From positions 1 to 34,387 of the forward strand of contig QMQE01000002.1 in NCBI GenBank assembly GCA_003650445.1: 34,387 nucleotides of DNA. Direction: 5' to 3'. Positions 18,574 to 33,691 of this stretch are shown here, piece after piece (within the stretch, counting starts at the first letter, position 1; every line of letters starts with the position of its first letter). This stretch comes from Acidobacteriota bacterium (lineage in GTDB: Bacteria; Acidobacteriota; Holophagae; Thermotomaculales; Thermotomaculaceae). The notes below the pieces were generated by a model, which was not told where the DNA came from, ran no database searches, and saw nothing but the letters and a program-made list of their open reading frames with translations. Both the position numbers and the translations under genes were made by a program.

Positions 18574-18654
18574 AATGCAAGCTTTTTCTAAAAAATTTTC
18601 ACAAAAATGACAAAACCGTACAATCTGAGCCTTTCTCATCCGAGTGAGCAGAAA

Positions 18655-18680
18655 TAGGAGTAGGAGCAGGGGGAAGAAAA
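18655..18680 (+). repeat. Degenerate copy of the GGAGTA array
   Basis: TAGGAGTAGGAGCAGGGGGAAGAAAA. Confidence 0.55.
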
Positions 18681-18807
18681 ATCAAAGATCTGGCCATCCT
18701 CCTTATCACCTGTCGTGCTTCACTCATCCCAGATTCTTTTACTGAAGATTCAGGATGTGCCTGCGGCAGGAGCTGCGGCTGCAATAGCTGAAAAGGACCA
18801 CACGGAT

Positions 18808-18858: not shown

Positions 18859-19785
18859 TTACTTGTTGACCTGAAAGGTGGTGTCACCTTTCTCAAAGAA
18901 ACCGAGAATCTGGTTGGCAGCGGCAAGTGCAGCGTTCACATTTGCTTCCAGTGTCTGCGCCCCCATCTTCTTTGCAGTGAAAAATACACGATCCGGGTAC
19001 TGAGCCAGGAGTTCATCTTTGCAATCCGGTGCAATATCAGACACATAGCGGAAATCCGGTCGTTTTTCCAGCATTTTCTTCAGTCCCTCTTCGTCAATCA
19101 CTTCCTTCCTCGCCGTATTGATTACCGTTGCTCCCTCCTTCATCCGGGACATCAGGGGAAAATTGATGGACTTGATGGTGGGCTTGATTGCCGGGATGTG
19201 CAATGAAACATAGTCCGAGCGATCATACAGCACTTCCACTGAATCCACCGGTTCTACATCATCTTTCCGAATGGTATCCGCTGGGACAAAAGGGTCATAG
19301 GCCAGTACCTCCATGCCAAAACCGCGGGCAATCCGTGACACATTCCGCCCCACATTGCCGTAAGCCTGCAAGCCCAGGGTCTTGCCCTTCAGTTCAGTAC
19401 CGGCTTTCCCGGAATACGCCCGCCTGGCCATGTAAATCATCAGGCCAAACACCAGCTCCGCCACTGCGTTGGAATTCTGCCCGGGGGTATTCATCACCAC
19501 AATTCCCTTTTCGGATGCGGCTTCCAGATCCACATTGTCGTATCCTGCACCGGCCCGGACTACAATCTTGAGGTTCGGGGCATTGTCCATCACTTCCCTC
19601 GTTACCTTGTCGCTGCGTATAATCAGTGCTTCCACATCCGACACAGCATTGACAAAGGCCTGCTGATCCGGATAATTCTCCAGAACCTGCAGTTCATACC
19701 CTGCGCCTTCCATTATCTTCCGAATCCCGTCCACAGCAATTGAAGCAAACGGCTTAACTGTCGCAACCATTACTTTTTTTGACAT
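18859..19785 (-). CDS. D-isomer-specific 2-hydroxyacid dehydrogenase (phosphoglycerate dehydrogenase-like, no ACT domain)
   Basis: MSKKVMVATVKPFASIAVDGIRKIME...; 'IVVRAGAGYDNVDLEAASEKGIVVMNTPGQNSNAVAEL'; start trimmed to the ATG behind GAGGGGAATC. Confidence 0.85.
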   Translation of the reverse strand: MSKKVMVATVKPFASIAVDGIRKIMEGAGYELQVLENYPDQQAFVNAVSDVEALIIRSDKVTREVMDNAPNLKIVVRAGAGYDNVDLEAASEKGIVVMNTPGQNSNAVAELVFGLMIYMARRAYSGKAGTELKGKTLGLQAYGNVGRNVSRIARGFGMEVLAYDPFVPADTIRKDDVEPVDSVEVLYDRSDYVSLHIPAIKPTIKSINFPLMSRMKEGATVINTARKEVIDEEGLKKMLEKRPDFRYVSDIAPDCKDELLAQYPDRVFFTAKKMGAQTLEANVNAALAAANQILGFFEKGDTTFQVNK

Positions 19786-19818: not shown

Positions 19819-19904
19819 TTAACTGTAACGCACCACTCTCCCCTTGTCAAAGAGTTAAGGGGAAGTGTTCTGTGCGCCTGCGGCGCCTGTATTCTGTGTT
19901 CTGA
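19819..19904 (-). repeat. 86-bp direct repeat, copy 1; contains promoter TTGACA-N17-TACAGT on the minus strand
   Basis: 85/86 identical to 21494..21579; -35 at 19850..19845, -10 at 19827..19822; hairpin GCGCC TGC GGCGC at 19874..19886. Confidence 0.9.
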
Positions 19905-19986
19905 GGGATAAGAATGGGAATGAGAGTGCGGAAAGAGTACATGTAAGTATCCAGATAATTCCAGAGCTGTTTCAATCGGCTCATTG

Positions 19987-20607
19987 TCATTTTTTCTCAA
20001 GTGTTTTTTTCAGCTCGGCAATTAACTTTTTTGATTTTTCAGGAATATGACAATCAAAACCCGAATCGGTCTTTTCAGTGGCAATCGTCCGTGTTAAACG
20101 TTCCAATTCCTCAGTCCCATGCAATTTTTCAATACCGATGCACGCAATGAATGCCCTCAAAAATGACAGGATGTGAGTCCAGTGGTTATATCCTTCTGGG
20201 GCCTGAATTTGCTCTCGCCAATCACCTACCCTTAATTGGATTTCTTTACCCTGCAACCATCTAATTTTGAGCCATGGATCCCTGTTTTTTATCCGAAGTT
20301 CAAATACAAAAGAATCCACATTATTCTTGTGCAATTTCCTTGTTGAAAACAGGCTTTTCATCAAAATCAATTCCTGGTCTGTATCAAAGCTAATTTTGTG
20401 TGCTTCTGTAGTAAGACTTTTAAGGGCCTTGGGCGTACCAGCCAGGAAAAGAACAGCCAGAACAATCAAGTTTTCGTATCCTTGAATGCCTGGCCTGTCA
20501 GAATGGACAACAAAAAAGACCAGAATAGTGGGAAGTATCAACCCGATAAATATGTTCCCATACAGGACAAGAGATAGTTTTTTGAAGATCATGATCTTTT
20601 TTCCCAT
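19987..20607 (-). CDS. Hypothetical membrane protein (two N-terminal TM segments plus possible PH-like soluble domain)
   Basis: MGKKIMIFKKLSLVLYGNIFIGLILPTILVFFVVHSDRPGIQGYENLIVLAVLFLAGTPKAL... Confidence 0.6.
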   Translation of the reverse strand: MGKKIMIFKKLSLVLYGNIFIGLILPTILVFFVVHSDRPGIQGYENLIVLAVLFLAGTPKALKSLTTEAHKISFDTDQELILMKSLFSTRKLHKNNVDSFVFELRIKNRDPWLKIRWLQGKEIQLRVGDWREQIQAPEGYNHWTHILSFLRAFIACIGIEKLHGTEELERLTRTIATEKTDSGFDCHIPEKSKKLIAELKKTLEKK

Positions 20608-20642
20608 ATTTTACCTTTCTCAAAATGGATAATGTAAGTGTT

Positions 20643-21029
20643 TCAATCTAAACCCAGACTACCGGAATCCGGTCTGATATCCGAATTCCTTCCAGACTTG
20701 TCGTGGATGAGATCAGCTTTTGTAAACAATGGAACGCTTACAAGATCAATGTGCTTTTTCAAAGCTGCTTTTGTAATTTGCGCATACGCCAGCACATCCA
20801 CTTTCAAGGCCAGACTGCTCTCAGCGAAAAGTGTCCATAGCCGGTCTGTTGCTTTTTTGTCAATGTCGCCCCTCAACACAAGGTCAATATCCGAGTTCGG
20901 GCGGTGCGTGCCCTGTGCCCTTGACCCGAATAAATCGACTCGGTCTATCCTGTCGGCAAACGGTGCCAGGATCTCCCGGATTATCTCCAGTTGTTGTTTT
21001 GATAATCCATTGTCCATCTTTTTATTCAC
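20643..21029 (-). CDS. mntA: MNT-type nucleotidyltransferase, MntA-like antitoxin
   Basis: 'DLFGSRAQGTHRPNSDIDLVL' matches GSX10DXD; overlaps the upstream HEPN gene by 8 nt. Confidence 0.8.
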   Translation of the reverse strand: MNKKMDNGLSKQQLEIIREILAPFADRIDRVDLFGSRAQGTHRPNSDIDLVLRGDIDKKATDRLWTLFAESSLALKVDVLAYAQITKAALKKHIDLVSVPLFTKADLIHDKSGRNSDIRPDSGSLGLD

Positions 21030-21456
21030 GACCCTCTTCTTCCTGTGAGAATTGTAAAAGCTTAAAGTAAATCTCTTCCATCGCCGGCAGATAATGGGTC
21101 TTTATATCTTCAATAACACTTTCAAACTGTGCCAGATCGTAGGTGTGTGACATTTTGTTCCTGGCATCCAGCGCGTCCATCCATACCTGACCGTCGTTGA
21201 TTAGTTTTGCGGCAAAGGCTTCTCGGATTACGCTCCGTGGTGTTACCTGGGGAATTACCACGTTCTGGAATTCCAGATAATCTTTCAATGTCTTCCATGC
21301 AAGCTCAATGCTATACTCAAAACGCTGGATAACGCCTTCCTTCTCAAGTTGGTTAAGCCCTTTCTCATCCTTTTGCTTCATTGCCTCTCTTAACAAAACA
21401 TAAGCCCGCTGAAAATTATCAAAGCGATACAACCATCGAGGTTTTTCATCTGGCAC
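21022..21456 (-). CDS. hepT: HEPN / nucleotidyltransferase substrate-binding protein, HepT-like toxin
   Basis: 'DARNKMSHTYD' matches RX4HXY; GTG start at 21456 behind GGGAGG, replacing the ORF start at 21525 that lies in the repeat. Confidence 0.8.
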   Translation of the reverse strand: MPDEKPRWLYRFDNFQRAYVLLREAMKQKDEKGLNQLEKEGVIQRFEYSIELAWKTLKDYLEFQNVVIPQVTPRSVIREAFAAKLINDGQVWMDALDARNKMSHTYDLAQFESVIEDIKTHYLPAMEEIYFKLLQFSQEEEGRE

Positions 21457-21493
21457 TTCATACCTCCCTGAACAATATTCTCTAAATTCTTTC

Positions 21494-21579
21494 TTAACTG
21501 TAACGCACCACTCTCCCCTTGTCAAAGAGTTAAGGGGAAGTGTTCTGTGCGCCTGCGGCGCCTGTATTCAGTGTTCTGA
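21494..21579 (-). repeat. 86-bp direct repeat, copy 2; contains promoter TTGACA-N17-TACAGT on the minus strand
   Basis: One mismatch to copy 1 (t19895 vs a21570); -35 at 21525..21520, -10 at 21502..21497. Confidence 0.9.
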
Positions 21580-21711
21580 AAGAAAGGGAAAAGAACTGAT
21601 ATCCATTGATAAGTTCCCGTTACAGTTCCAGTTTCTCTATTTTTTCTGTCAGAAAACAGAACATATCTTTATTTAATTAAACTCAATTCCAACCTTTCCC
21701 CCACTTCAGCT

Positions 21712-22713
21712 CTACACGCCGCGGAAATCCGGTTCCGGGCTCGGACGGTTGTCGACAATGGTTTCAAGCCGGCCCATCACATCGTCTGTCAGAAGCGACA
21801 CATCATCCAGCGCCTTCATGTTTTCCACCACTTGTTCCGGACGGGACGCCCCGGTAATAACGGTGGAAACATGGGGGTTTTTCAAACACCATGCCAGGGC
21901 CAGGCGAGCAAGGGAAATCCCCAGTTCATCTGCCACTACCTGCAGTTTACGGGCCTTCTCAATTTTCACTTTACCCTCTGGAGTGTCCATGATGCTTTCT
22001 TTCAGCCACTTGTAGCTTGAAAGAGACAGACGGCTGCCTTTCGGAATTCCATTACTGTATTTGCCGGTGAGGATGCCGCTGGCCAGCGGACTCCAGATGG
22101 TCGTTCCCAGCCCAATCCGGTCATAGAGCCGGATATATTCTTTTTCAATCCGCTCTCGCCTCAGGAGATTGTACTGGGACTGTTCCATCAGCGGCGGTAC
22201 CATGCCATTTGCCCTTGCGATGTGCCAGGCATCCATGATCATGTCTGCCGGCCACTCGGACGTTCCCCAGTACATCGCCTTGCCTTCCCGAATCAGCTGA
22301 TTCATGGCACGGACGGTTTCTTCCACCGGGGTAAAAAAATCCGGCCGATGGCAGAATACAAGGTCCACATAATCCATTCCCAACCGGCCTAAAGCAGCGT
22401 CCATTCCCTCCTTAACGTGTTTTGCATGTACACCCTTATCATTGGGGCCAACACCTCCCCAGAAGATTTTCGTACTAATCACAAGGTCGGAGCGTTTCCA
22501 TCCCAGTTTACGGATGATCCGGCCCATCATTTCCTCTGCCACACCGTGGCCGTACACCTCTGCATTATCAAAGAAATTGACCCCCGCGTCATAGGCCGCC
22601 TTCATGCAGGCCTCTGCCGTTTCATCTCCAATCTGGTCCCCGAATGTCACCCAGGCCCCGAAACTCAACGCCGAAACCCGAAGGCCCGATCTTCCCAGTT
22701 GACGATATTCCAT
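21712..22713 (-). CDS. Aldo/keto reductase (Kv-beta/YghZ-like)
   Basis: MEYRQLGRSGLRVSALSFGAWVTFG...'FFDNAEVYGHGVAEEMMGR'...'RPEQVVENMKALD'. Confidence 0.9.
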   Translation of the reverse strand: MEYRQLGRSGLRVSALSFGAWVTFGDQIGDETAEACMKAAYDAGVNFFDNAEVYGHGVAEEMMGRIIRKLGWKRSDLVISTKIFWGGVGPNDKGVHAKHVKEGMDAALGRLGMDYVDLVFCHRPDFFTPVEETVRAMNQLIREGKAMYWGTSEWPADMIMDAWHIARANGMVPPLMEQSQYNLLRRERIEKEYIRLYDRIGLGTTIWSPLASGILTGKYSNGIPKGSRLSLSSYKWLKESIMDTPEGKVKIEKARKLQVVADELGISLARLALAWCLKNPHVSTVITGASRPEQVVENMKALDDVSLLTDDVMGRLETIVDNRPSPEPDFRGV

Positions 22714-22777
22714 CCCGTTTCCTCCCGTAGCTTTTTGTTCCCACCCTTTCCTGCAATTGTATCATCTCAATGGGAAA

Positions 22778-22809
22778 GTAGGGGTAGGAGTTGGAGTAGG
22801 GGTAAGAAA
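22778..22809 (+). repeat. GGAGTA/GGGGTA degenerate hexamer array
   Basis: GTAGGGGTAGGAGTTGGAGTAGGGGTAAGAAA. Confidence 0.75.
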
Positions 22810-22813
22810 GAAG

Positions 22814-22848
22814 CAAAAAAAAGGCAGGGAACATCTGGTTCCCTGCCT
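22814..22848 (-). terminator. Rho-independent terminator of the tricorn protease gene
   Basis: Minus strand GGCAGGGAAC CAGAT GTTCCCTGCC TTTTTTTT. Confidence 0.85.
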
Positions 22849-22901
22849 TTGACTTAAGCTTGTCTGGTCTTGACCTTTTCCGGCCTTAACCTTTTCTCCA
22901 C

Positions 22902-32244: not shown

Positions 32245-33557
32245 ACTGGAGAGCCATCGGCAGCCTGCTGCTCAACATCATCGCCATTTCTGTCCTGTTT
32301 TTCCTGATACTAACCGGGAGCAGTACGGTATCTCACAGCGCTGCAATCGCCCCCTACCTGGCGTTGGGTTTTCTCATCATCGTCGCCTACCTTACAGGGA
32401 TTCTGGCAAGAGAACTGGGCTTCCCCGCCCTTACCGGGAACCTCTTGGCCGGCATCGTATTCGGTCCGTCCCTTCTGGGATTTATCACGAAAAGCAACAT
32501 TCATTCCCTTGAATTCATTAACACCATCGCCTTGAGTTTTATTGCCCTGTCAGCCGGAGGTGAATTGAAACTTAAGAGCCTCCGGGAGAATGCCAGCGTC
32601 ATTTCAGGCATCACTTTGAGTCACACGGTTCTGATTTTCGGCGGTACCCTGGTGGCCATGGTTTCCTTCCTGAACATCTCCGGAATCCAGGGAATCGCCG
32701 GATCAAGAATCATCTGGATGGCATCCATTGTTCTGGCCGTAGTCGCTGTGGCAAAATCCCCGGCATCCACCATCGCAGTTATTAACGAGTATAAAGCCAG
32801 GGGGCCGTTTACAGACGTTGTACTGGGCGTGACCATGGTGAAAGACGTTGTTGTACTCCTGATATTTGCCGTTTCCATGGGAATAATCCGGGGAATCAGC
32901 GGTGCAGCGCCCTTCTCTCTTTCTTTTCTCTTTCACACCTTTGGAGACATTTTTCTGTCCATTGGCGCCGGCCTGGTTTACGGCGGATTGATGATCCTGT
33001 TTTACCGTTTTGTTGCCCGTGAAATCACTGTGTTCATTGTCATTGCCGCTTTTCTTGCCAATGAACTGGCAAGCTTTGCCGGATTGGAACAGATGCTCAT
33101 GTGCATGATTGCCGGCTTCGTCGTTCAGAATTTCTCCAGGCAAGGGGCTTTGATGATTGAGGGAATTGAAAAAAGTCATCTTCCAATCTACGTCATTTTC
33201 TTTTCCATTGCAGGAGCCGGGTTGGATTTTTCATATTTTGGATCGGTTTACATCCTTGTCACGCTTTTTGTGCTTCTCCGTGTCGGCCTTATCTTCTTCT
33301 CCACTTTTCTGGGAGCGAAACTCACAGGGGCATCCCCCGCCATACGAAAATTTGCCTGGACCGGTTTTCTCACCAATGCCGGCCTGACCCTCAGTATTGC
33401 CATTATTGTCGAAAAGGCATTTCCGGACTGGGGCCGGCCGTTGAAATCCATCATCATTTCCGCCATTGCCATCAATCAGCTTGTGGGGCCGGTGCTGTTT
33501 AAGATTGGCCTGGTAAAAAGCGGAGAAGTGAGGCCGCAGAGCGGCCGTGACAGGTGA
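32241..33557 (+). CDS. CPA2-type cation:proton antiporter (KefB/NhaP-like)
   Basis: 'ELGFPALTGNLLAGIVFGPSLLGFI', 'FIALSAGGELKLKSLRENASVI', 'ILAVVAVAKSPASTIAVINE'. Confidence 0.85.
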   Translation: MNWRAIGSLLLNIIAISVLFFLILTGSSTVSHSAAIAPYLALGFLIIVAYLTGILARELGFPALTGNLLAGIVFGPSLLGFITKSNIHSLEFINTIALSFIALSAGGELKLKSLRENASVISGITLSHTVLIFGGTLVAMVSFLNISGIQGIAGSRIIWMASIVLAVVAVAKSPASTIAVINEYKARGPFTDVVLGVTMVKDVVVLLIFAVSMGIIRGISGAAPFSLSFLFHTFGDIFLSIGAGLVYGGLMILFYRFVAREITVFIVIAAFLANELASFAGLEQMLMCMIAGFVVQNFSRQGALMIEGIEKSHLPIYVIFFSIAGAGLDFSYFGSVYILVTLFVLLRVGLIFFSTFLGAKLTGASPAIRKFAWTGFLTNAGLTLSIAIIVEKAFPDWGRPLKSIIISAIAINQLVGPVLFKIGLVKSGEVRPQSGRDR

Positions 33558-33590
33558 TGGCGTACCTCCGGCACTGTGATACGTGATGGG
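33553..33590 (+). repeat. GTGATG-type array around a GTACC TCC GGCAC hairpin, overlapping the antiporter stop codon
   Basis: GGTGATGGCGTACCTCCGGCACTGTGATACGTGATGGG, closely matching the reverse complement of 561..628. Confidence 0.7.
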
Positions 33591-33691
33591 TTCCGGAAGT
33601 GTTCTGCATTTTGAAAAAGCGACATGTGGTGTGGACGTCAGACAGGGAACCGGCCATGCTCCCTATAAACCGAGGCAAAAAAGATGAAATG

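Follow-up and report, generated by a model that had tools for sequence, protein, structure and literature searches.

The AKR/2-HADH locus and its direct repeat

The window, that is the whole stretch of DNA analysed here (34,387 nucleotides of contig QMQE01000002.1 of an Acidobacteriota bacterium), contains a locus at which genes for an aldo-keto reductase (AKR), a HEPN protein, an MNT nucleotidyltransferase, a 206-residue protein (ORF206) and a D-2-hydroxyacid dehydrogenase (2-HADH) are accompanied by two copies of an 86-bp direct repeat (Table 1). The copies are identical at 85 of 86 positions, with T versus A at nt 77 as the sole mismatch, and agreement over such a length is not explicable by chance. 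The shared sequence stops 3 nt beyond the -10 hexamer of a predicted promoter, leaving 33 nt between copy 1 and the ATG of 2-HADH (19785) and 37 nt between copy 2 and the GTG of the HEPN gene (21456). Both the near-identical pair and the minus-strand TTGACA, 17-nt spacer and TACAGT in each copy, as described in a first-pass annotation, are real.

Table 1. Position, strand and main characters of the features discussed in the text
Feature	Position	Strand	Remarks
2-HADH gene	18859..19785	-	Owner of the native promoter (predicted)
Repeat copy 1 (2-HADH side)	19819..19904	-	Native 2-HADH promoter (predicted) and one arm of an interspersed element
2-HADH promoter (predicted)	19822..19850	-	-35 TTGACA, 17-nt spacer, -10 TACAGT; -10 and spacing kept in G001, G002 and G003
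Element arm E1	19862..19904	+	Subtype continuing TTCTGA, then GGGATAAGAATGGG; same continuation in G000:C103 (L091), 13/14
Inserted segment	19905..21493	.	1,589 bp; absent from G002 and G003
ORF206	19987..20607	-	206 aa; hydrophobic N-terminal stretches (membrane ORF)
MNT nucleotidyltransferase gene	20643..21029	-	GSX10DXD motif
HEPN gene	21022..21456	-	HI0074/NTase_sub_bind family; RX4HXY motif (RNKMSHTY)
Repeat copy 2 (HEPN side)	21494..21579	-	85/86 identical to copy 1
Duplicated promoter (predicted)	21497..21525	-	Upstream of the HEPN/MNT operon; same motif as the 2-HADH promoter
Complete element E2	21537..21667	+	Arms GAAGTGTTCTGTGCGCC...TTCTGA (left) and TCAGAAAACAGAACATATC (right); subtype continuing AAAGAAAGGG
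AKR gene	21712..22713	-	Adjoins 2-HADH in G002 and G003
Repeat-module sites	506-619, 1230-1340, 18640-18690, 22777-22850, 33547-33591		Also at L106, L113, L114, L118 and L132

The genome that holds the window (G000) was compared with those of three congeners (G001, G002 and G003), whose orthologous DNA is 80-82% identical, corresponding to 18-20% divergence. The assembly of G000 is a fragmented draft of 178 contigs (2.16 Mb), in which the locus lies mid-contig with flanks that agree with the congeners. A search with the 86-mer, as proposed with the first-pass annotation, returned two full copies in G000 and otherwise partial matches only: about ten further loci of G000 match nt ~41-86 or parts thereof, second-half matches are present at at least 14 places in G002 and at 8 in G003, and G001 matches only over nt 1-35. 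The sequence GTATTC is common to both copies and otherwise unseen among the matches in G000, as expected if one copy derived from the other. No match was found in the search of plasmid DNA, in the exact-pattern scan of genome contigs, or in Rfam for the window.

The predicted promoter half of the repeat

Upstream of 2-HADH in G001, repeat nt 1-35 are matched at 89%. Alignment of the 2-HADH leaders of four congeneric species revealed a conserved GGAGGGG ribosome-binding site and a -10 hexamer reading TACAGT (TAAAGT in G003), with a -35 hexamer exactly 17 nt upstream that reads TTGACA in G000 and G001 or TTGTCC in G002 and G003, so that the hexamers and the ~17-nt spacing of a sigma-70 type promoter are kept upstream of the orthologues in all four species. 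The motif alone is not significant, as 9 promoter-like sites were counted in 4.4 kb against 4.8 (sd 2.2) in shuffled sequences, and the candidate promoter is supported by cross-species conservation rather than by motif score. Based on the G001 match and on the retention of the -10 and the 17-nt spacing in four species, the promoter half is assigned as native to 2-HADH. The repeat is a composite, in which nt 1 to ~43 correspond to the native 2-HADH promoter and nt 44-86 to an element arm that has no promoter.

The gene upstream of 2-HADH is a different one in G001. The -35 of G002 and G003 is formed by the terminus of another inverted-repeat element (GGGACAAGTTTAAG...). Between 2-HADH and AKR, these two genomes (L059 and L058, respectively) carry the inverted repeat GGGACAAGTTTAAGTTTGAG...AACTCAAACTTGTCCC, one end of which provides the 2-HADH -35; vestiges of the right arm of this repeat are still present in the window near 21668-21705.

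Since no other minus-strand promoter-like site was reported in the short gap between copy 2 and the HEPN start, the HEPN operon probably depends on the copied, predicted promoter, and the HEPN and 2-HADH genes probably both start now from the same predicted promoter. The inverted repeat TCCCCTT-N11-AAGGGGA, which had been proposed to affect promoter access by folding or cruciform formation, is present at the -35. It is not conserved in the congeners, and the fold of the 86-nt repeat is unexceptional relative to shuffles (z = -1.7); control of this kind was dropped from consideration.

The interspersed intergenic element

The second half of the repeat, GAAGTGTTCTGTGCGCC-TGC-GGCGCCTGTGTTCTGTGTTCTGA, forms the left arm of an inverted-repeat element that is intergenic and ~130 nt long, and whose right arm, where present, reads TCAGAACACAGAACAC... 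A 149-nt stretch that holds the complete member E2 folds better than shuffles (z = -3.4). Counts of the pattern GTGTTCTGTGTTCTGA, with at most one mismatch allowed, are 59, 57, 14 and 2 for the four genomes of the genus and zero for five sister-genus genomes, and nt 44-86 belong to what is, in the genomes searched, essentially a genus-restricted interspersed family. Short length, interspersed intergenic position, partly palindromic sequence and 7-nt periods (GTGTTCT) are shared with REP and other intergenic repeats (PMC3733652) and with heptamer intergenic repeats (PMC4679880). Unlike these, the present element is essentially confined to one genus in the genomes searched and is ~130 nt long when complete, with no GTAG/CGTC tag noticed and no established linked transposase. 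A search for RAYT (Y1 transposase) proteins gave one marginal match in G000, on C35 (21.5 bits, or 23.9 with in-frame neighbours, against a cut-off of 23), and no match in G002, though the latter has about as many elements; the C35 locus (L085, G000:C35:14758-14931) carries a 367-aa ORF with the marginal Y1 transposase match, at best a candidate RAYT-like protein.

Several other characters of the intergenic regions were recorded. Many element copies in G000 are found no more than a few hundred bases from the end of a contig (C31, C43, C60, C109, C119 and C141); the assembly is therefore probably interrupted by the family, which may have more copies than were counted. The intergenic regions of the genus also hold several interspersed repeat modules with 6- or 7-nt periods (GTGTTCT, GTAGGAGTAGGG, AGTGCGAGTGAA, ATCACTC and ATTCGTA), which are combined as mosaics and with inverted arms.

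The position of the element relative to genes could be scored on the GAAGTG-end side in 26 of 28 contexts: 12 lie 4-23 nt past a stop codon, one lies farther past a stop, and 13 face a gene start. The interspersed element does not mark promoters, because it adjoins stop codons as readily as starts. The GAAGTGTTCTGTG element often begins 4-8 nt past a stop codon (L005, L008, L011, L030, L035, L037, L042, L044 and L049), which suggests a role at mRNA 3' ends, for example in termination or stabilisation.

These contexts bear on the reading that had been given to the repeat at first, namely that the 86-bp unit is a portable promoter, a mobile regulatory cassette of upstream hairpins plus promoter that moves to gene starts. 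Two copies in the same orientation, each 33-37 nt from a gene start, speak for it, and its first part stands: the promoter is duplicated, sits before both genes and is conserved in four species. Portability is not supported, as there is no third promoter copy in G000 or the congeners, and the congeners carry the promoter only at 2-HADH, so that the promoter half is confined to the two sites here and the congeneric 2-HADH orthologues. The half that is dispersed lacks the promoter and, in 12 of the 26 contexts, follows a stop codon; for nt 44-86, the fixed placement at gene starts on which the reading was staked is not seen. A portable family should comprise several promoter-bearing copies before unrelated genes; none was found, and the reading, which we consider extremely improbable, was rejected.

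Beyond nt 86 the two copies part. After copy 1 comes GGGATAAGAATGGG, which agrees with a family member on G000:C103 in 13 of 14 positions; the highest agreement reached in 2000 random trials was 11. Copy 2 is followed by AAGAAAGGGAAAAG, of which 14 nt recur unchanged in an element of G002. The copies continue as different subtypes of the element, and the right edge of the 86-bp duplication is the arm boundary of the element.

The inserted segment and its genes

The GC content of the segment between the copies is 0.421, compared with 0.507 for the window, and is below that of all 164 same-sized windows tested. The HEPN protein matches PF08780 (6e-43) and carries RX4HXY; the MNT protein matches PF01909 (5e-10) and carries GSX10DXD (GSRAQGTHRPNSDID), with a score of 33 bits, short of the 60 bits set as the NCBIfam cut-off for MntA. 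Class I HepT/MntA modules have RX4HXY and GSX10DXD as their signature motifs (PMC7641770). The adjacent overlapping genes, both motifs and the same Pfam families are shared with HepT/MntA (type VII, PF08780/PF01909 class I) modules, and the pair is regarded as an intact type VII toxin-antitoxin-like operon. It differs from those modules in that it lies under a predicted promoter copied from a host neighbour gene and is followed by an ORF that has no assigned family. For ORF206 no match was obtained in Pfam, NCBIfam or PADLOC, and no relative in the genomes of 60 relatives. The HEPN protein has only remote relatives, with identities of 41% for one encoded elsewhere in G003, 48% in G042, 46% in G095 and 58% in G406, the last being the best among ~400 genomes of the phylum.

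Origin of the duplication

AKR and 2-HADH are directly adjacent in G002 and G003, and HEPN, MNT and ORF206 have no match at this locus in either. Because both congeners show the empty site, the duplication can be read as the by-product of one insertion, and the copy on the HEPN side, whose promoter half belongs natively to 2-HADH, would accordingly derive from the target. The low GC content of the segment, the remoteness of the HEPN relatives and the lack of ORF206 relatives point the same way, to an insert specific to this species. It is thus very likely that a foreign HEPN/MNT operon with its trailing ORF was inserted between AKR and 2-HADH and duplicated 86 bp of its target. The target duplication would comprise the native 2-HADH promoter and the adjoining element arm; the copy kept by 2-HADH would preserve its expression, and the other copy would drive HEPN-MNT. 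The copies differ at one of 86 positions, compared with 18-20% of positions in orthologous DNA of the congeners, which indicates that the insertion is recent, unless gene conversion homogenised the copies.

Alternatively, the congeners might have lost an operon that was ancestral, or an independent insertion might have been followed by gene conversion that produced the promoter pair. Loss through the 86-bp direct repeats would leave exactly the empty site, and conversion would explain the near identity of the copies. The absence of the three genes from the orthologous site in G002 and G003 speaks against these readings, as does the finding that no close homologue of HEPN or ORF206 was detected anywhere in G001-G003; they are further opposed by the different element that G002 and G003 carry at the site and by the low divergence of the copies, which suggests a recent event. 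They are considered improbable.

As to the manner of insertion, a cassette might simply have entered with duplication of an 86-bp target site, through the action of a transposase or the repair of a break with long staggered ends. This would account for the anatomy of the locus, with a unique insert between near-exact flanking copies and an empty site in relatives. Duplications made by transposases are usually far shorter than 86 bp, which counts against this explanation. No transposase or integrase family match was found for the three genes of the insert, no terminal inverted repeats were seen by eye at its ends, and the right edge of the repeat falls exactly at the arm boundary of the element, with family sequence of another subtype running on into the insert. 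A simple target-site duplication was downgraded on account of this continuation and is held to be unlikely.

The switch of subtypes favours recombination anchored on the element, with an illegitimate join at the other end, over a transposase-made target-site duplication; an element of its own thus seems to have come in with the insert. Such additive recombination is put forward tentatively as the mechanism, at somewhat less than even confidence. The incoming DNA would have carried its own family member, of subtype GGGATAAGAGTGGG, beyond the end of ORF206, and this member would have paired with the resident element, while the other end would have joined illegitimately at a point 3 nt downstream of the -10. 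Everything from the anchor to the join would thereby be duplicated, giving the order reductase, element, promoter, HEPN, MNT, ORF206, element, promoter, 2-HADH. Homology to the family is found at one edge of the insert.

One homologous end, one illegitimate end and a gain of foreign DNA are shared with homology-facilitated illegitimate recombination and single-crossover integration (PMC3240628). The differences are that the target is duplicated here and not deleted, and that a short dispersed repeat would serve as the anchor. In its classical form, homology-facilitated illegitimate recombination usually leads to loss of recipient DNA (PMC3240628), which counts against the proposed mechanism. 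Both duplications and deletions were documented from one-ended homologous integration, the homology-facilitated events proper giving deletions; in that E. coli system, the duplications arose from single crossovers of re-circularised molecules (PMC3240628).

Generality and implications

Direct repeats of at least 40 bp and 88% identity within a contig were sought in 810 kb of G000; the other eight pairs are closely spaced, none by more than ~450 bp. As no comparable pair with gene-sized spacing occurs there, the event looks like a single case and not a general mechanism. It would be a long shot to propose that foreign operons are captured next to host promoters by recombination anchored on the dispersed hairpin elements of the genus, with the promoter duplicated and both the newcomer and the resident gene expressed. 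On the comparative data, the 86-bp pair is a one-off insertion scar and not a mobile promoter, and relatives need to be checked before a near-identical repeat upstream of genes is taken for a mobile regulatory element. The locus offers a clean and recent snapshot of how an acquired toxin-antitoxin-like operon can gain a host promoter, here a predicted one, without silencing the neighbouring gene, and, since part of a repeat element was duplicated along with this promoter, the locus suggests that captures of this kind can be guided by dispersed repeats.
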